This document shows, piece after piece, positions 1 through 29,519 of a stretch of DNA of 64,000 nt; the first letter of the stretch is position 1; each line of letters starts with the position of its first letter. This DNA comes from Chloroflexota bacterium (GTDB taxonomy: Bacteria; Chloroflexota; UBA11872; VXNJ01): positions 2,907-66,906 of the forward strand of contig VXNJ01000014.1 in NCBI GenBank assembly GCA_009840625.1, read 5' to 3'. The notes beneath the pieces are model-generated. The model saw nothing but the letters and a program-made list of their open reading frames with translations. It did not search any database and was not told the DNA's origin. The position numbers and the translations under genes were made by a program.

Positions 1-120
1 TTTTTTTTTTTTTTTTATTTTTTTTTTTTTTTTTTTTGGGTTTTTTTTTTTTTTGGGGGGGGGGGCGGGGGGTGGTGGGGGGGGGGGGGGGCTGGGCCCC
101 CCCCCCCCCCACCGCCGACC
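1..120. other. Homopolymer low-complexity contig end, probable artefact
   Basis: The first 120 bases are long runs of T, then G, then C with hardly any mixed sequence. Nothing else in the window has this composition. The block sits exactly at the sequence end, which is typical of a sequencing or assembly artefact rather than biology. Short reading frames across it encode only poly-Phe, Gly, Pro or Lys and should not be annotated. Confidence 0.85.
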
Positions 121-375
121 CGCCGCCGTTTGCATTGGGCCTGCCCGCTCCCGCCGCCGGTGACCTGCGGCGGCAAGCGCCGTCGGCCAAACCGCATTCG
201 TTGCCGGCAAGCGAACTGGCGCGCTCGGGACGGGCCCGCACCGGCGGCTTTGGATTCAACCGCTACCAACAATTGACCAGGGTCCGACCGGATCGTTTTG
301 CCGGCAAGCGCCGACCGCACTTGCGGCGCTTCCGGGGCGGGCGCTCGTAACCGCCGCGCGCGGGACTGACACTCC
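121..375. other. Upstream region without a recognisable gene
   Basis: About 255 bases of ordinary GC-rich sequence precede the carboxylate-amine ligase gene. The only structure seen is a short direct repeat, TGCCGGCAAGCG, near 200 and again near 299. A frame is open on the plus strand, but it runs back into the homopolymer artefact and has no recognisable protein. Any promoter for the first operon should lie here, but no convincing -10/-35 pair was found. Confidence 0.5.
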
Positions 376-1554
376 ATGCCATTACCGGAACCGTCCTTCT
401 CAATCGGGGTGGAGGAGGAATACATGCTGGTCGATCTGGGGTCCCGCGATCTGGTGGCCGAGCCGCCGCCGGAGCTGACCACCGCCCTCGAGGACCAGCT
501 CGGCAAGCAATTCAGCCGCGAGCTCCTGCGGACCCAGATTGAAGTGGGGACAAAAGTCTGCAACGACATAAGCGAGCTGCGCGATGATCTGGCGCGGCTG
601 CGCGGGGCGGTATCCGCGATCGCCGGCGAATACGCGATGGCCCCGATAGCGTCATCCACTCACCCGTTTGCCAACTGGCGCGTGCAGAAGGTCACCGACC
701 GCGAACGGTACCAGGCACTGGGCGACGATCTGCAGGTAGTCGGATCGCGGGCGCTGATCGGCGGAATGCACGTGCACGTGGGAATCGAGGATGACGATCT
801 GCGCATCGACTTACTCAACCAGTTGACCTACTTCCTGCCGCACCTGCTGGCGGCCAGCACTTCCTCGCCGTTCTGGGAAGGGGAGTTGACCGGCCTGATG
901 TCGTACCGCACAAGCGTCTTTTCGGAGCTTCCTCGGACCGGGCCGCCGGAGCAGTTCGAGAGCCACGCCGATTACGTGCAAACCGTCGCGGTCCTGCAGG
1001 ACGTGGGCCTGATCGACGACGCGTCCAAGATCTGGTGGGACGCCCGGCTCAGCAAGAGTTTCCCGACGATCGAGATGCGCGCCACCGATATCTGCACCGA
1101 CATCGACGATGCGATCTGCTTGGCCGCCGTTTACCGCTGCGTCTTGCGGATGCTCACTCGCCTGCGGCGAGCCAACCAGCGCTGGCGACGATACTCCCCC
1201 CTGCTGATTCGCGAAAACCGCTGGCGCGCGCAGCGATATGGAATAGATGCCGGACTGGTGGACTTCGGACAGGGCGAAATCAAGTCATTTGCGGACCTGT
1301 GTGAAGAATTGCTCGAGCTGATCGCGCCGGACGCCGGGTATTTTGGATGCATGAGCGAGGTGGAGCACCTGCGCACGATCGTCAAACGGGGCACCAGCGC
1401 CCACCGGCAGATCGACGTGTATCGCGCCGCCCTGGCCAACGGGGACTCGGACGAAGTCGCGTTTTCGCGGGTCGTCGACCACTTGGTGGCCACGACCGTG
1501 GCCGGGGTTGAACCCCGCTCCCACGGTGACACCTCCGTAGCGGCCCGCCGGTGA
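376..1554 (+). CDS. GCS2-family carboxylate-amine ligase (YbdK-like)
   Basis: This 392-aa protein matches the glutamate-cysteine ligase type 2 / YbdK family, ATP-dependent enzymes joining an amino-acid carboxylate to an amine. Family hallmarks are visible: an N-terminal SIGVEEEYMLVD glutamate-rich motif (residues 9-20), a GGMHVHVGIED metal/nucleotide block near residue 131, an SSPFWEG motif, and an EMRATDICTDID block near residue 233. The length is normal for YbdK (about 370-390 aa). The ATG at 376 gives the conserved N-terminus. Its TGA overlaps the GTG start of the next gene (GTGA), so it is coupled to the FtsE operon. The true substrate cannot be read from sequence; glutamate-cysteine ligase activity is family knowledge and often weak in YbdK members. 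Confidence 0.88.
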   Translation: MPLPEPSFSIGVEEEYMLVDLGSRDLVAEPPPELTTALEDQLGKQFSRELLRTQIEVGTKVCNDISELRDDLARLRGAVSAIAGEYAMAPIASSTHPFANWRVQKVTDRERYQALGDDLQVVGSRALIGGMHVHVGIEDDDLRIDLLNQLTYFLPHLLAASTSSPFWEGELTGLMSYRTSVFSELPRTGPPEQFESHADYVQTVAVLQDVGLIDDASKIWWDARLSKSFPTIEMRATDICTDIDDAICLAAVYRCVLRMLTRLRRANQRWRRYSPLLIRENRWRAQRYGIDAGLVDFGQGEIKSFADLCEELLELIAPDAGYFGCMSEVEHLRTIVKRGTSAHRQIDVYRAALANGDSDEVAFSRVVDHLVATTVAGVEPRSHGDTSVAARR

Positions 1555-2468
1555 GCGAGCCTGGCGTGAGCGACCCCGGATCGGTCCGACCGGCTGCTGC
1601 CGAGGATCGGGACTCGGCGCCAGCGGATGCGGTCCGCGCCCCCGATTCGGATCAACCTGAGGCGGCCAGCGAACTCGAATCACGGCAGCTGGCCGACGCC
1701 CTCTACGGGGTCGGTCGCTCGCCGATCATCGTGGCCCGCAACGTCAACTACCGCTACCCCGCTGGCGAACTGGCGCTCCGCACGGTCAATTTGACGATCC
1801 GGCGCGGCGAGTTCGTATTCCTGGTCGGGTCGTCTGGTGCCGGCAAGACGACCCTGATCCATCTTCTAAACCGCGACTTGGTGCCCAGCAGCGGATCGAT
1901 TTACATCGACGGTGTAAACACCGCGCGCCTGACCCGTTCCGAGATTCCGCGACTGCGGCGCCGAGTCGGGGTGATATTCCAGGACTACAAGTTGCTGACC
2001 CGCTACACGGTCGGTGAAAACGTGGCCTTTGCGCTGCGTGTAACCGGCGGATACGACGGCGCCGCCCAGCGTCGGGTGCGGGAAGCGCTGGCGACGGTTT
2101 CGCTGGCCGACCGGGCCAACGACTACCCGTTTCAGCTCTCCGGAGGCGAACAGCAGCGGGTCGCGATTGCGCGCTGCCTGGTCACCAAGCCCCCGATCGT
2201 GATCGCCGACGAGCCGACCGGCAACCTGGACCCCGAGATCGCGCGCGAGACGATTTCGCTGCTACTGCGGATTTCCGAACTGGGTACGACGGTGATAGTT
2301 GCCACCCACAACCGCGAACTGGTCAACAGTCTGCGGCAACGGGTGATCGAACTCTCCGGCGGCAGGCTGGCCCGCGACGAGATCCGCGCCGGCTACACCG
2401 CCGACCTGCTCGACGCGGACGCCTTCACGTCGGCGCAATCTCCGGCCGAAGATCCGTCGGATGACTAG
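1551..2468 (+). CDS. ftsE: FtsE-type ABC ATPase with N-terminal extension
   Basis: A 305-aa ATPase of the FtsEX complex, which transmits ATP hydrolysis across the membrane to cell-wall hydrolases at the division site. Walker A GSSGAGKT is at residues 93-100, the signature LSGGEQQR at about 196-203, and Walker B IADEPTGNLD at about 218-227 with an intact D-loop Asp, followed by an H-loop ATHN. Core FtsE proteins are about 220-230 aa. This one carries roughly 55 extra acidic, Pro/Ala-rich residues at the N-terminus and about 30 at the C-terminus. GTG at 1551 overlaps the preceding stop, and the gene overlaps ftsX by 8 nt, so it is translationally coupled on both sides. An internal start that would remove the extension is possible but none is obvious. 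Confidence 0.92.
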   Translation: MSEPGVSDPGSVRPAAAEDRDSAPADAVRAPDSDQPEAASELESRQLADALYGVGRSPIIVARNVNYRYPAGELALRTVNLTIRRGEFVFLVGSSGAGKTTLIHLLNRDLVPSSGSIYIDGVNTARLTRSEIPRLRRRVGVIFQDYKLLTRYTVGENVAFALRVTGGYDGAAQRRVREALATVSLADRANDYPFQLSGGEQQRVAIARCLVTKPPIVIADEPTGNLDPEIARETISLLLRISELGTTVIVATHNRELVNSLRQRVIELSGGRLARDEIRAGYTADLLDADAFTSAQSPAEDPSDD

Positions 2469-3348
2469 CGTCCACACCCTGCAGTACGTGTTCGCGGCCG
2501 CGTTCGCCTCGATGTGGCGGAACCGGCTGACCACGGTGGCGGCGATAGTCACCACGACGGTCATGCTGCTGGTGTTTGGACTTTTTCTGGCCGCCAACGA
2601 CACCCTGGAGCGCATGGTCGATGCGCTGGGCCGGCGCACCAACATGGTCGTCTACCTACGCGACGACGCGTCCCCGGTCTGGATCTCGCAGACGATCGCG
2701 GATTTCCATGCCCGCCCGGACGTCGCCGAGGTCATCTTCGTCTCCAAGGAGCAGGCGGCCGACGACCTGCGGGCGTCGCTCTCCGAACTGGGCGAGGTGC
2801 TCGACGTGATCGGACAGAATCCGCTCCCGGCATCGATCGAAGTGCGCATGGAGGATCCCGCCAACATCCTGGAACTGGCCGAGGCGCTGCGCCAGGAGAC
2901 CGATCAGATCGAGGAGGTGCTGGTCAGGGCGGACGTGATCGAGCGGCTGCTGAATGCGTCGCAACTGGTGACCATCGGGGGCGGACTGATGATTGCCCTT
3001 TTGGCCCTGGTGGCGCTGCTGGTGATCGTGAACACGATCAGACTGGCGGTGCACTCGCGACGCGAGGAAATCGAAGTCATGAAACTGCTCGGGGCCACCG
3101 ACTGGTTCGTGCGCGGACCCTTCCTGATCGAAGGCGCCGTCATCGGCCTGATCGGATCGGTCGTTGCGGCGTTCCTGACCCTGGTCATCTACATACGGGT
3201 GGTGCCGGTGGTGAATTCGCTGATTTCGTTCCTGCCGGTCCGAACGGCCGCTTTCTTCTGGGTGAACTTGGCCCTATTCATCGTTCTCATGGGCCTGATA
3301 ATCGGCACTCTCGGATCTTATTTCTCGGTTCGCAACGCGCAGATGTAG
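2461..3348 (+). CDS. ftsX: FtsX cell-division permease-like protein
   Basis: A 295-aa FtsX homologue: a cytoplasmic N-terminus, a first membrane helix at about residues 22-45, an extracellular domain of roughly 120 residues, and three further helices at about 170-195, 220-245 and 265-290. The motif HSRREEIEVMKLLGATDWFVRGPFL near residue 200 is the typical FtsX coupling region. FtsX carries no ATPase activity; it relays the FtsE cycle to periplasmic or extracellular peptidoglycan hydrolases. Here it lies between two FtsE-like ATPase genes and is followed by an M23 peptidase with coiled coils, its likely client. Its ATG overlaps ftsE by 8 nt in the junction GATGACTAG. Confidence 0.92.
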   Translation: MTSVHTLQYVFAAAFASMWRNRLTTVAAIVTTTVMLLVFGLFLAANDTLERMVDALGRRTNMVVYLRDDASPVWISQTIADFHARPDVAEVIFVSKEQAADDLRASLSELGEVLDVIGQNPLPASIEVRMEDPANILELAEALRQETDQIEEVLVRADVIERLLNASQLVTIGGGLMIALLALVALLVIVNTIRLAVHSRREEIEVMKLLGATDWFVRGPFLIEGAVIGLIGSVVAAFLTLVIYIRVVPVVNSLISFLPVRTAAFFWVNLALFIVLMGLIIGTLGSYFSVRNAQM

Positions 3349-3349
3349 C

Positions 3350-4030
3350 TTGATTTTGTTCAGCAACGTTTCCAAGTCCTACGGGCGTTCGCGCAACGTC
3401 CTTGAGGACATCAATCTGTTAATTGCCCGCAACGAATTCGTATTTCTGATCGGCGCCAACGGGGCCGGCAAATCGACCCTGCTCAAGCTCGCCACGCTTC
3501 AGGAGGAACCGAGCGCCGGCACCCTGATCATCGGGTCTCAGCGCGTGAACAGGCTCAATTCGAAGGGGCGCGCCCGGCTGCGTCGGCGACTGGGAATAAT
3601 CCCGCAGCAGAACCGGCTTTTCTACGACCGCACCGCCTATGCGAACGTGGCTCTGCCACTGCAGGTGACGGGCGAGGGCGGCAATCGGCTGCGCGCGCGG
3701 GTCATGGCCGGGCTGGACCGCGTCGGCATGGCCGACCAGGCCGATACCGTCGTCAATGAAATGTCCGGCGGACAGCAGCAGCGCGTGGCGATAGCCAAGG
3801 CCCTGGTCAACGATCCCGAAATCCTCATCGCCGACGAACCGACCGAAGCCCTGAGTCCCTCGGCGTCGCAGGCCGTGATGGAGCTGTTGCTGCAGGCCAG
3901 CAGCGAAGGAATCACGGCGCTGGTCGCCACCCACGATTCGGCGGTAGTCGACCGATTGCGCCGCCGCGTGGTCAAGCTGGAGGAAGGCCGGGTCGTGGCC
4001 GACGTGCCGGCCGGCGGATTCGATGACTAG
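3350..4030 (+). CDS. Second FtsE-like ABC ATPase with altered D-loop
   Basis: A 226-aa ABC ATPase, close in length to core FtsE, starting with TTG one base after the ftsX stop. Walker A GANGAGKST is at residues 35-43, the signature MSGGQQQR near 140, Walker B ILIADEPT near 160, and an H-loop ATHD near 190. Where FtsE has the D-loop GNLD, this protein has EALS, so the conserved D-loop Asp is missing. It therefore differs functionally from the first FtsE of the same operon. Together with the single FtsX between them, this suggests a heterodimeric FtsE/FtsE2 complex with one altered ATP site. Homodimers competing for FtsX are the alternative. Its end overlaps the peptidase gene by 8 nt. Confidence 0.85.
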   Translation: MILFSNVSKSYGRSRNVLEDINLLIARNEFVFLIGANGAGKSTLLKLATLQEEPSAGTLIIGSQRVNRLNSKGRARLRRRLGIIPQQNRLFYDRTAYANVALPLQVTGEGGNRLRARVMAGLDRVGMADQADTVVNEMSGGQQQRVAIAKALVNDPEILIADEPTEALSPSASQAVMELLLQASSEGITALVATHDSAVVDRLRRRVVKLEEGRVVADVPAGGFDD

Positions 4031-5276
4031 GTTCTCGCGCCGGCTGCTGCTGCGCGGATCGGCCCTGGCCGGGGTGGCCGCGGTGGCCGCGGCGGGCGCC
4101 CCCAGATCCGACGCCGACGAGCTTTCCGACCTGCGCAGCAAATTGGCGGCCGCCGAGCAGGATCTTGAATCCTCCGGCCAGTCGCTGTCGGCTTCCGACG
4201 CGCTGCGGGCCGCCACCGCCGCCCGGTCCTCGGCGCTGCAAGTGCAACTGCGGGTGACCGACGAAGCGCGATTCCGGGAACTGGTCAGAGCCCAGGAAAT
4301 CGACTACCAGCTCGACATCGGGGCCCTAGAAACCGAACGCACGCGGCGCGAGATCGCGGACCTTGAATCCGAGTTCGAGTTCATCCGGCGCTCGGTCGGT
4401 TCGCGCATCCGGGCAATCTACAAGGCCTCGCGCAGCACCAGCCCGCTTACCCTGATCCTCTCCTCGGACTCGTTGACCGAGGGGCTGGACAAGGTGGCCG
4501 CGCTGGAGCAGGTGCTGCGCCAGGACCAGGACGAGATAAAGCGGCTGCTGGCCAAGCGCGAGGAAATCCGGCTGCGCTACGACCTGCTCAAAGACCAGCA
4601 GGACAACCTGGGCCAGCTGCGCGAACAAAAGGCCGCTGTGCAGGCGGCGCTGGATAGGCGTTGGGAAGAGCATCTGCAGCGGGTCGAGGAGGTCAAACGG
4701 CAGCAGGCCGGCTACGAGTCCGACGTGCGCGCGTTCGCCGCCGAACAGTCCGCGCTTGGCGGGCAAATCGACTACCTGAAACAGCAGATCGAGGACGAGC
4801 TGGCTCGGATCGAGCGCGAGCGGCAGATAGCGGAGGCGCGGCGGCGGGCGGCCGGATTGTCCGGCGGAGCCTATTTCCCGCCGCTTTACGGGATCGTAAC
4901 CACCGAGTTCGGTGGCTGCACCTACGGACAGTGCCCGCACCTGGGAATCGACATCGCCGCACCGCTGGCCACGCCGATCGTGGCCGCCTCCAGCGGAGTG
5001 GTCATCAAGTCGGGCTACGCGATCGCCGGCAATCGCTGGGCCTCTTACGGGATGACCGTGATAATCGCCCACGGGACCCACGAGGAGACCCTTTACGCCC
5101 ACCTAGCCGACACCAGCCATCCGCCCACCGTTAGGCAGGGCGACACGGTGATCGTCGGCGACACGATCGGCTACGTCGGCGTGACCGGCTGGACCACCGG
5201 ACCGCATCTCCACTTCGAGCTCCGCCGCAATGGGGCCCCCGTCAATCCCCGCGACTCGATCCAGTTCGGTTTCTAG
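4023..5276 (+). CDS. Tat-exported coiled-coil M23 peptidoglycan endopeptidase (EnvC-like)
   Basis: This 417-aa protein has the EnvC layout: signal peptide, long coiled coil (about residues 35-275), then a C-terminal LytM/M23 domain (about 290-410). The N-terminus SRRLLLRGSALAG carries a twin-arginine pair followed by a hydrophobic stretch, so Tat export is likely. In the M23 domain the zinc ligands are present: HLGID near residue 306 and HLHFEL near residue 395. E. coli EnvC lacks these residues and only activates amidases, so this protein is predicted to be an active DD-endopeptidase. The downstream position in the FtsEX operon and the 8-nt overlap with the second ATPase make it the probable FtsEX-controlled hydrolase. 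Confidence 0.9.
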   Translation: MTRFSRRLLLRGSALAGVAAVAAAGAPRSDADELSDLRSKLAAAEQDLESSGQSLSASDALRAATAARSSALQVQLRVTDEARFRELVRAQEIDYQLDIGALETERTRREIADLESEFEFIRRSVGSRIRAIYKASRSTSPLTLILSSDSLTEGLDKVAALEQVLRQDQDEIKRLLAKREEIRLRYDLLKDQQDNLGQLREQKAAVQAALDRRWEEHLQRVEEVKRQQAGYESDVRAFAAEQSALGGQIDYLKQQIEDELARIERERQIAEARRRAAGLSGGAYFPPLYGIVTTEFGGCTYGQCPHLGIDIAAPLATPIVAASSGVVIKSGYAIAGNRWASYGMTVIIAHGTHEETLYAHLADTSHPPTVRQGDTVIVGDTIGYVGVTGWTTGPHLHFELRRNGAPVNPRDSIQFGF

Positions 5277-5278
5277 GG

Positions 5279-6547
5279 ATGGCGATGATCGGCCGAGTCC
5301 GCCAACGCCTGGTCGGGGCCATGATCCGCCCGCTGCCCCTGATCGGAGCGCTGCTGCTGGCGGTGGCCGCCCTCCTGGGCGGTATGCTGCTGGGCAGCTC
5401 CGAGCTGCCCAGCCCGTTTCGCGAAGGACACCCGGACCCCGAGGACGCCGCCCTCCTGGAAGAGGATTTCGCGGTCTTCTGGCAGGCCTGGTCGACGCTG
5501 CAGGACAACTTTTACGCCGGGCCGCTGGATTCGCGGGAACTGATGCGCGGCGCGGTCGACGGGATGGTCGGCGCGGCCGACGATGCCCATACCTACTTCC
5601 TGCCGCCCGAGCGGGCCGGCAACCACCGCGATTGGATCAACGGCACCTTTTCCGGAATCGGAGTTTCGATGTCGCTGGAGCCGGATGGAGCGGTCCGGAT
5701 ACAGCGGGTGTTTCCGGGCACGCCGGCGCACGACGCCGGCCTGCTGGCGGGGGACCAGATCCTATCGGTCGACGACCGGTTGCTCTCCGACCTGCCGCTC
5801 GCCGAGGGCCTGTATCTGATCCGCGGGGAGTCCGGCACGGTGGTGGTGCTCGACGTCTATCGTCCCGGCACTGACGAATCGCTCAGGTTTGAGATCGAGC
5901 GCTCGCGGATCAGTCCGCCCACGGTATGGGCGCGCCAGATCGATGGATTCGGGTTCGTCGAGCTGACCCAGTTCCGCTCGCGCACCGCCGGCGAACTTCA
6001 GGACGCGCTCGCCGAGCTATCCGACGCGGGCGTCGCCGGAGTCGTCCTGGATTTGCGCGGCAACGGGGGCGGATTCTTGAGCTCGGCCCTGGGAGTGGCC
6101 TCGCAGTTCTTGCCGGAGGGAGTAACGGTCGCCTATCAGACCCAGCGCACCGGTCCCAACGTCCGGCACCGCACCGGCAGCGACGGCGAGGCGCTGCGGA
6201 TGCCGCTGGTCGTGCTGGTCGATTCCGATACCGCCAGCGCGGCCGAAATCGTGGCGGCGGCCCTGGCTGACAATCGCCGGGCCCCGCTGGTGGGGCAGCA
6301 GACCTACGGCAAGGGGTCGGTGCAGCTCAGTTTCGACCTCGCCGACGACTCGCTGGTGCGGGTAACGGTCGGCAAATGGCTCACCGCCGGCGGGGTTCCC
6401 ATCGACGGCGCCGGCCTGGAGCCGGACGTGACGGTCAGCACATCGTCGCAGCGCGATCCCAACGACGATGATCTGGCCCTGGCGGAGGCGCTGCGCCTGA
6501 TGCGCGCCGACGCCGGATGTTGCCTGATCCAGGACGCGGCGGCCTGA
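5279..6547 (+). CDS. S41 carboxyl-terminal processing protease (CtpA/Prc-like)
   Basis: A 422-aa S41 family protease. An N-terminal membrane anchor lies at about residues 18-40, a PDZ domain at about 120-205 (GDQILSVDDRLL), then the S41 core with LRGNGGG near residue 260. The Ser/Lys dyad is in place: S320 in DTASAAEI and K345 in TYGKGSVQ. Such enzymes act outside the membrane, cutting C-termini of envelope proteins and often trimming or degrading peptidoglycan hydrolases. It begins 2 bases after the M23 peptidase stop, so co-regulation and possibly proteolytic control of that hydrolase are reasonable inferences. ATG at 5285 is an alternative start. Confidence 0.92.
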   Translation: MAMIGRVRQRLVGAMIRPLPLIGALLLAVAALLGGMLLGSSELPSPFREGHPDPEDAALLEEDFAVFWQAWSTLQDNFYAGPLDSRELMRGAVDGMVGAADDAHTYFLPPERAGNHRDWINGTFSGIGVSMSLEPDGAVRIQRVFPGTPAHDAGLLAGDQILSVDDRLLSDLPLAEGLYLIRGESGTVVVLDVYRPGTDESLRFEIERSRISPPTVWARQIDGFGFVELTQFRSRTAGELQDALAELSDAGVAGVVLDLRGNGGGFLSSALGVASQFLPEGVTVAYQTQRTGPNVRHRTGSDGEALRMPLVVLVDSDTASAAEIVAAALADNRRAPLVGQQTYGKGSVQLSFDLADDSLVRVTVGKWLTAGGVPIDGAGLEPDVTVSTSSQRDPNDDDLALAEALRLMRADAGCCLIQDAAA

Positions 6548-27377: not shown

Positions 27378-27478
27378 TGAATTCGCACTTGCGGTGATAA
27401 CATAATTTTGTCACCTGCGGCGGCTGGCGCAAATCTGTGAATCGATGCGGCGTCGGGCATTTCGGAAGCGGTTGTTCA

Positions 27479-28261
27479 TTGGCAACAAAAATTGCGGTCG
27501 CCAACCAAAAGGGCGGGGTAGGCAAGACCACCACGACCGCGAATTTGGGCGTTGCCATGGCCCGCGACGAAAAGCGGGTGCTGCTGGTCGACATGGACCC
27601 GCAGTCGAACCTGACCGCCGCTTTCGGGCTGGAACGCAATCTTGCCGAGACGCTGACTCAGGCCCTAATCGACCGCGACCGCGCGCTCCCGATCCTGCGC
27701 GTGGCCGACGCGTCGGGCATCGAGGTTGATATCGTCCCGGCCAGCCTGGACATGACGACCGTCGAGACGGCGCTTGCTTCGCGTATCGGGCGCGAAATGC
27801 GGCTGCGCGACAAGCTGCGCAAGATCGAAGAGGATTACGATTTCATCCTGATCGACACGCCCCCGTCGCTGGGACTGCTGACCGTCAACTCGCTGGTCGC
27901 GGCCGAGTACGTGGTGGTCCCCACCGAGGCCCGGTTCTTCTCGCTGCAGGGACTGGAGATGCTCAAGGAGAGTATCAACGAGGTCCTTTACATAAATCCG
28001 AATCTGCGAATTCTGGGAATCCTGCTCTCCAAGCTGGATCGCCGACTGCGCGAAGAGAAATCGGTCGCCGAGTTCATCCGCGAGGAATGGGGCGACACCG
28101 CGTTTTCGGCCTACATACCCACCAATAGCAAGATCCTGGAAGCATCCAGCAACGGCGTCTCGTTGTACGCCTACAAGAAAAATCGCACCTCAACGCCGGG
28201 CCTGAGACTGGCGATCGGATCCTATGAAGAACTAGCAAAGGAAGTGGCTGAACGTGTCTGA
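27479..28261 (+). CDS. ParA/Soj-family ATPase
   Basis: A 260-aa deviant-Walker ATPase. KGGVGKTTTTANLG near residues 10-23 gives the signature and catalytic lysines, VLLVDMDPQSNLTAAFG near 34-50 the A-prime block, and FILIDTPPSLGLLTVNSL near 118-135 Walker B. ParA/MinD/MipZ proteins form ATP dimers on DNA or membrane and position plasmids, chromosomes or the Z ring. There is no C-terminal membrane helix of MinD type visible and no parB follows; instead the gene overlaps ftsZ by 8 nt. A Z-ring positioning role, comparable to MipZ, is inferred from this context. TTG start at 27479; the upstream GTG at 27437 is less conserved-looking. Confidence 0.9.
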   Translation: MATKIAVANQKGGVGKTTTTANLGVAMARDEKRVLLVDMDPQSNLTAAFGLERNLAETLTQALIDRDRALPILRVADASGIEVDIVPASLDMTTVETALASRIGREMRLRDKLRKIEEDYDFILIDTPPSLGLLTVNSLVAAEYVVVPTEARFFSLQGLEMLKESINEVLYINPNLRILGILLSKLDRRLREEKSVAEFIREEWGDTAFSAYIPTNSKILEASSNGVSLYAYKKNRTSTPGLRLAIGSYEELAKEVAERV

Positions 28262-29519
28262 CCGCGACGGAAGCGCTTTTGATCCAATCCGCCTGCAGGA
28301 CCGGAGGCGCGACTCAAATGTTGTGGCCGGTCTGGTCGGGTCGGGACCCAACATGCGATCGAACGCGGTGCACGACATCAAGGTCTTCGGGGTCGGCGGC
28401 GCCGGCAACAACGCCATAAACCGCATGATCGCCGAAGGTGTTGGTGGAGTCACGTTCGTCGCCGTCAACTGCGATGCCCAGGATCTGGAACAATCGCGCG
28501 CCGATGAGCGCATCATCATCGGCGAGCGATCGACCAAGCGGCTGGGGGCCGGGGCCGATCCCCGGCTGGGCGAGAAGGCCGCCATCGAGTCGCTGTCGGC
28601 GATCGAGACCGCCGTGGCCGACGCCGACATGGTCTTTATCACCGCCGGCATGGGCGGTGGGACCGGATCCGGCGCGGGCCCGATCGTCGCCCGCGCGGCG
28701 CGTGCTGCCGGGGCATTGACGGTCGGAGTCGTGACCACGCCGTTCGCATTTGAACAGGGCATGCGGATGCGGGTCGCCCGCACTGCCGTCGAGAACATGT
28801 ACCAGAACGTAGATTCGTTGGTCGTCGTCAGCAACGACAAGCTCGTGGAGCTGGTTCCGCGGTCCCAGCCGATCGCCGACGCTTTTCGAATAGCCGACGA
28901 AATGCTGCTCAACGGCGTCCGCGGGATAACCGACCTGGTAACCAATTGCGGCTTCATCAACGTCGACTTCGCCGACGTGCGCAAGATCATGTACGACTCG
29001 GGGACCGCGATGCTCGGAGTCGGTTCGGCCGCCGGCGGGGATCGGGCCGAATCGGCCCTGAAGGCGGCGCTGAAAAGCCCGCTGCTGGAAACCCCGGTGG
29101 AGAGCGCGACCGGAATACTCGTCAACATCACCGCCGGGCCGGACCTGGGCATTCACGAGGTGAACCGGATCGTGGATTCCATCCGCCAGACCTCCGATCC
29201 CGACGCCGACATCGTTTTCGGCGCGGTAATCGACGAGGAGGCCCGGGACCGACTCTCGGTAACCGTCATCGCCACCGGATCCGATCAAGCGCACGGCGCC
29301 GCGTCCCCGGCCGCCGAACTCCCCCGGCGGCGATCCGATCCACCGGACCTGGACTCGATTCACCGCGAATTTGAAAAACTGGGTGCCGAGCTAGGCGAAA
29401 GCCAGCCGGTGGCAGTCGCCGAATCAGCGGCCGGTGCCTACGATGACCTGGATCCCTGGCACGATCTTGATCCCGAGATCCCGGCGTTCATACGCCGCCG
29501 CCGCAACCTGCGCCAGTAG
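28254..29519 (+). CDS. ftsZ: Cell division protein FtsZ
   Basis: A 421-aa tubulin-like GTPase forming the Z ring. Seen: GVGGAGNNAINRM near residue 45, the tubulin signature GGGTGSG near 134-140, a T7-loop region NVDFADVRKIM near 235, and a conserved C-terminal peptide DPEIPAFIRRRR near 404-415 that normally binds FtsA/ZipA-type partners. The linker (about 350-400) is short and acidic. GTG start, overlapping parA, so the two are co-translated. Usual dcw partners (ftsA, ftsQ, mur) are not adjacent. Confidence 0.96.
   Translation: MSDRDGSAFDPIRLQDRRRDSNVVAGLVGSGPNMRSNAVHDIKVFGVGGAGNNAINRMIAEGVGGVTFVAVNCDAQDLEQSRADERIIIGERSTKRLGAGADPRLGEKAAIESLSAIETAVADADMVFITAGMGGGTGSGAGPIVARAARAAGALTVGVVTTPFAFEQGMRMRVARTAVENMYQNVDSLVVVSNDKLVELVPRSQPIADAFRIADEMLLNGVRGITDLVTNCGFINVDFADVRKIMYDSGTAMLGVGSAAGGDRAESALKAALKSPLLETPVESATGILVNITAGPDLGIHEVNRIVDSIRQTSDPDADIVFGAVIDEEARDRLSVTVIATGSDQAHGAASPAAELPRRRSDPPDLDSIHREFEKLGAELGESQPVAVAESAAGAYDDLDPWHDLDPEIPAFIRRRRNLRQ

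Follow-up and report, generated by a model that had tools for sequence, protein, structure and literature searches.

A two-ATPase variant of the ftsEX locus conserved in a class of Chloroflexota, with an FtsE paralogue that lacks the D-loop aspartate

In published accounts, FtsEX contains two copies of the same FtsE subunit. A whole class of Chloroflexota instead has two FtsE paralogues, FtsE1 and FtsE2, at one ftsX, and this arrangement with two ATPases is a genuine and conserved variant of ftsEX. What stands out most as new is that FtsE2, in which the D-loop Asp is absent, was never lost alone among the sampled genomes of the class, whereas the canonical FtsE1 was. The repeated deletion of FtsE1 with retention of the Asp-less FtsE2 offers a natural test of the role of the D-loop Asp in a mechanotransmitting, non-transporting ABC system, and the class also allows the existence of mixed FtsE pairs to be tested. 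The open-access literature searched, a body of work outside which most subscription journals lie, contained no description of an ftsEX locus with a second FtsE.

The locus and its proteins

The window, i.e. the whole stretch of 64,000 nucleotides that was analysed, belongs to a 2.27 Mb assembly that is 97% complete. The features at the locus are as follows.

376-1554, GCS2-type ligase ORF directly before ftsE1
1551-2468, + strand, ftsE1, FtsE ATPase with a GTG start (Walker A GSSGAGKT, D-loop GNLD)
2461-3348, + strand, ftsX, permease with the FtsX extracellular domain
3350-4030, + strand, ftsE2, with a TTG start (Walker A GANGAGKS with Asn37, D-loop EALS with Ser169; Walker B DE at 162-163, signature SGGQ, Gln86 and His195 intact)
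4023-5276, + strand, M23 peptidase, coiled-coil hairpin (residues 30-276) and LytM domain
5279-6547, + strand, S41 C-terminal processing protease, PDZ and S41 domains

The gene order ftsE1-ftsX-ftsE2-M23-S41 was recovered from open reading frames and domain matches, in agreement with the sequence-only reading, which had described a five-gene set with two FtsE-type ATPases flanking what is the sole bona fide ftsX. That reading had also placed 8-nt overlaps at three junctions. These stood for ftsE1/ftsX and ftsE2/M23, the only such overlaps in the window, but not for ftsX/ftsE2, where the ftsX stop codon (3346-3348) and the TTG at 3350 are separated by 1 nt; the M23/S41 gap is 2 nt. With the GTG at 1551 taken as its start, FtsE1 carries an N-terminal extension of about 57 residues rich in Ala, Pro and acidic residues (window 1551-1720). 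No start codon is present directly at the usual FtsE start, and the matched FtsE1 regions of relatives begin without the extension. Upstream, window 15-350 is homopolymer-rich and of low complexity, with poly-Lys and poly-Pro in spurious ORFs, and may be an assembly artefact.

The permease contains FtsX_ECD and a permease domain and scored 231.8 bits against FtsX_Gpos (NCBIfam; cut-off 225). No second ftsX with FtsX_ECD was found in the genome, whose remaining FtsX-type permeases have ATPases of their own next to them. Elsewhere in the same genome (L298, 801-5466), two different overlapping ABC ATPase genes (D-loops GALD and GEVD) accompany a single permease of 952 residues, which has two FtsX domains and adjoins an HlyD/MacA-like gene.

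Judged from its sequence, FtsE2 is a diverged paralogue of FtsE, the second at this locus. TIGR02673 (FtsE) was the best profile for both FtsE1 (263.4 bits, next 174) and FtsE2 (229.9 bits, next 160); as both scores fall under the curated cut-off of 264.85, the profile is not taken as grounds for equivalog status and the two are called FtsE-type paralogues only. They are 42% identical in the window, with compatible motifs. FtsE proteins took all the top places among the PDB sequence matches of FtsE2 (163-175 bits, followed by 143). The structure predicted for FtsE2 (pLDDT 92) best matched the folds of E. coli and S. pneumoniae FtsE, and also V. cholerae FtsE. In the tree, FtsE2 fell with E. 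coli and M. tuberculosis FtsE in an FtsE clade (85/100) apart from LolD/MacB. K41, Q86, S139-G141, D162, E163 and H195 were invariant in 14 FtsE2 sequences, and the catalytic Glu and SGG signature are kept in both ATPases, i.e. the hallmark of a degenerate site is absent.

The M23 partner is predicted to be an EnvC/PcsB-like coiled-coil hydrolase. Its model places helices at 30-138 and 151-276 before the M23 domain, with a pTM of 0.42 at which domain placement is unreliable. A weak match to CC_PcsB was obtained, and the first matches of the fold search were 6tpi (EnvC-FtsX) and 8tzl (FtsEX-EnvC), with poor superposition (TM 0.29-0.36). H306, D310, H360, H395 and H397 are present and invariant in 8 sequences; the metal and catalytic residues are all kept and the hydrolase is catalytically intact, as had been proposed. 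The N-terminus (window 4023-4070) bears a twin-arginine-like signal, SRRLLLRG, and a similar motif occurs in L068. The same proposal had regarded the M23 and S41 neighbours as part of an unusual module. They turned out to be ordinary, as M23 and/or S41 genes also follow single-FtsE ftsEX loci elsewhere in Chloroflexota. Within the class, the M23 gene adjoins ftsE2 in families f1, f3 and f58 and is near it in f4, and it is not beside ftsE2 in f2; the gene-order coupling of M23 is thus not universal.

Substitutions at the ATPase dimer contact

The D-loops read GNLD in FtsE1 and EALS in FtsE2, as originally reported. Comparison of alignment columns between 32 FtsE2 and 57 other Chloroflexota FtsE yielded only eight separating columns, two of them absolute. 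At D-loop position 169, Asp was replaced by Ser, Pro or Asn in 32/32 FtsE2 and in 0/57 other FtsE; the Asp of GNLD was kept in all 57 as well as in 5 references. The change is therefore not common in ordinary FtsE but is a fixed lineage trait. At Walker A position 37, Asn was present in all 32 FtsE2 and in none of the 57 others, which have Ser. This second substitution, absent from the sequence-only reading, is as diagnostic as the D-loop change, and positions 37 and 169 touch across the ATPase dimer. Both substitutions and the gene arrangement are seen in each of the five families sampled from the class, which is more than expected by chance. FtsE2 also differs at position 88, a neighbour of the Q-loop, presumably near the FtsX docking groove expected for ABC ATPases. 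Among the other ABC ATPases sampled in the window's genome, the Asp was kept wherever the D-loop was readable, except in one protein with GLSP, which we take to be LivF-like.

In TAP1, the Asp in the D-loop of one protomer touches the main chain at the Walker A Asn of the other and caps the helix that comes next; when this Asp is lost, dimer affinity falls about 8-fold and, in TAP, hydrolysis is abolished (PMC4242082). In ABCG5/G8, the same D-loop change left transport unaffected (PMC7756269). These differing outcomes indicate that the effect of losing the D-loop Asp depends on context. In general, helix capping is still possible with Ser or Asn.

Distribution of FtsE2 and loss of FtsE1

An FtsX search of 151 genomes of the phylum matched 70 of them at the threshold used, the weak matches resembling other permeases, and the gene order around ftsX was read for the window's class and for about 35 genomes from the rest of the phylum. 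The phylum is taken as Chloroflexota since some small complete genomes in the sample resemble Dehalococcoides/Dehalogenimonas. The ftsE1-ftsX-ftsE2 order proved to be class-wide in five families, wider than first noted. FtsE2 was present in 38 of the 41 sampled class genomes, covering all five families; 32 of these carry both ATPases (a count that takes in G156 and G160, read across contig breaks), six carry FtsE2 only and none carries FtsE1 only. Neither ATPase was found in G168 (69% complete) or in G130 and G169 of genus g6 (85-89% complete). G130 also lacked a detectable ftsX, and the whole FtsEX module has possibly been lost in this genus. In G154 (L076, 4042-4521) and G158 (L077, 4188-4856), a stretch of 480-670 bp lies between ftsX and ftsE2, and in G156 and G160 the contig ends at the ftsX-ftsE2 junction; together these suggest an inserted repeat.

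Outside the class (about 35 genomes), a single GNLD FtsE precedes ftsX except in G003, where an ATPase with GNLS and the Walker A Asn lies downstream of ftsX and a search upstream revealed no FtsE. An FtsE2 profile run over 400 genomes of the phylum scored 321-355 bits in the class, 319 in G003, whose sequence is itself a member of the profile, and at most 304 in all others. One contig scan for FtsE2-like ATPases outside the phylum gave mostly LolD/MacB-type proteins with the D-loop Asp, the closest match (L108, 48%) being an ordinary GNLD FtsE.

Two FtsZ were found in nearly all sampled class members and in G003, and one in most single-FtsE Chloroflexota. In the window, ftsZ (28254-29519) overlaps a ParA/MipZ-like gene (27437-28261) by 8 nt, and the second ftsZ of the genome is at G000:C1:506959-507240. 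The tendency of FtsE2-bearing genomes to have two FtsZ as well is broken by G013 and G008 and may reflect one or two events, and no claim is made of it.

FtsE1 is missing in six class genomes, G021, G159 and four g105 genomes. In G021, a single-contig genome, a 38-aa FtsE1 remnant lies just upstream of ftsX and is 66% identical to the FtsE1 of a sister species, and in the four g105 genomes a release-factor-like reading frame is now directly upstream of ftsX. Whole-genome searches of the FtsE1-less genomes for FtsE1 returned only FtsE2, followed by LolD/MacB-like ATPases. As G021 and G159 group together (92/55) and may represent a single loss, the sequences indicate at least two losses of FtsE1 in the class. 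In all six, ftsX-ftsE2 is intact and the D-loop, DSIN or ASLP, has not reverted to Asp. The dN/dS of FtsE2 was 0.011-0.022 in the FtsE1-less g105 genomes, and FtsE1 pairs gave 0.053 and 0.091. The intact ftsX-ftsE2, the purifying selection in g105 and the unreverted D-loop suggest that FtsE2 serves FtsX without needing FtsE1, and FtsE2 thus very probably works with FtsX in its absence. FtsE2 is evidently functional, since several relatives keep only this ATPase.

These genomes bear directly on how the pair is to be understood. The earlier suggestion of an asymmetric FtsE1-FtsE2 dimer is not supported as a necessary pairing, given the six genomes that keep ftsX and an Asp-less FtsE2 and have no ftsE1. 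An obligate heterodimer, a constant pairing of FtsE1 with FtsE2 whose two ATP sites would be unequal like those of TAP or TM287/288, would account for the retention of two coupled ATPase genes with one permease in 32 genomes, and the FtsE1 Asp would then face the Walker A Asn of FtsE2, the combination described for TAP1 (PMC4242082). The loss of FtsE1 argues against it, given the unreverted D-loop and the strong purifying selection on FtsE2 in g105, as does the retention in both ATPases of the catalytic Glu usually lost from a degenerate site. We therefore consider an obligate heterodimer improbable; a facultative mixed pair and two alternative homodimers are both possible.

That FtsE2 serves another permease and sits beside ftsX by chance is very hard to reconcile with the retention of the ftsX-ftsE2 order in five families, also where FtsE1 is gone, with FtsE2 being the sole FtsE-type ATPase found in the FtsE1-less genomes, and with the adjacent ATPases of the remaining FtsX-type permeases, even though ABC ATPase genes can sit apart from their permease genes. 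A decaying or merely redundant duplicate with a drifted D-loop would be compatible with the variation between Ser, Pro and Asn at the former Asp position and with the fast evolution of FtsE2 on the window's branch (dN/dS 0.42 vs G152). The catalytic motifs are nevertheless all invariant, dN/dS is low elsewhere and the gene repeatedly lost is FtsE1 rather than FtsE2, and we give this explanation almost no weight.

The paralogue tree was moderately supported, with the class FtsE2 clade at 76/98 after removal of the diagnostic columns, and a duplication within the class was not rejected by the AU test (p-AU 0.25). G003 grouped with FtsE2 in the full tree (98/92) and this placement was lost once the diagnostic columns were removed; its FtsE2-like features are a possible case of convergence. 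A horizontal origin of FtsE2 was disfavoured, as the FtsE2 subtree follows the host families. For FtsE2 from f3, f4 and some f2 genomes, the better-scoring of the window's two ATPases was FtsE1 and not FtsE2, because the latter evolves fast. Misassignment was rejected since the tree places them with FtsE2.

FtsE pairs on FtsX and comparison with known systems

From the above, we infer binding of FtsE2 to FtsX, dimer composition, kinetics and M23 activation as follows. FtsE2 would dock on the same FtsX dimer as FtsE1, and FtsX would have a choice between two ATPases. As the FtsE pair binds and hydrolyses ATP, it would bend FtsX, whose extracellular domain would hold the coiled-coil of the neighbouring M23 enzyme. 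Like FtsEX-RipC or FtsEX-PcsB, the complex would in this way free the intact LytM domain, which would cleave peptidoglycan at division. With all its catalytic residues kept, FtsE2 would hydrolyse ATP, in a dimer that communicates differently: the trans contact that the D-loop Asp makes with the Walker A residue across the dimer would be replaced (Asp to Ser, Pro or Asn; Ser to Asn). FtsX of the window's organism would probably carry a mixed FtsE1:FtsE2 pair at least part of the time, and FtsE2 could also act as a homodimer. The explanation as a whole, with FtsE2 acting on FtsX as an alternative to FtsE1, a part-time mixed pair and M23 activation, is the one we favour with modest confidence.

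The mixed pair is suggested by the operon structure of the window, and two separate homodimers fit the same data. Two interchangeable homodimers that alternate on the same FtsX and never mix, e.g. for different growth phases or partners, would agree with the existence of lineages with only an FtsE1-type ATPase elsewhere in the phylum and of FtsE2-only genomes (G021, G159, g105 and probably G003), and the difference at position 88 means that FtsE2 may dock differently. The tight operon, with its 8-nt and 1-nt junctions in the window, favours co-assembly instead, as do the 42% identity and compatible motifs of the two proteins, and strict alternation seems rather unlikely to us. Tentatively, a symmetric FtsX dimer in lineages with both ATPases may be driven mainly by an FtsE1:FtsE2 heterodimer with unequal ATP sites, and FtsE2 may be able to return to working as a homodimer after FtsE1 loss. 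If true, this would be the first asymmetric FtsEX, with FtsE2 the more indispensable subunit.

Two different ATPases also occur in the LivF/LivG pairs of branched-chain amino-acid importers, in which Asp-less D-loops are found; unlike FtsE1 and FtsE2, LivF and LivG serve a pair of unlike permeases, which belong to another ABC type. Heterodimeric ABC exporters such as TAP1/2 and TM287/288 likewise combine two different ATPase domains with D-loop and Walker A differences across the dimer. As a rule, one of their two sites has lost the catalytic Glu (PMC7544095), whereas FtsE2 keeps this residue and can exist without FtsE1. FtsEX-EnvC of E. coli, P. aeruginosa and V. cholerae resembles the present system in having a partner with a coiled-coil hairpin and a LytM/M23 domain, but the LytM domain of EnvC is degenerate and only activates amidases (PMC11627006), while the M23 residues are intact here. 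FtsEX-RipC of Mycobacterium tuberculosis and FtsEX-PcsB of Streptococcus pneumoniae share with the proposed system an FtsE/FtsX type VII ABC complex and its direct action on a coiled-coil hydrolase whose catalytic domain is active. These contain two identical FtsE, and the hydrolase domain of RipC is NlpC/P60 (PMC10694151, PMC11627006), in contrast to the two FtsE paralogues and the M23 enzyme of the locus described here.
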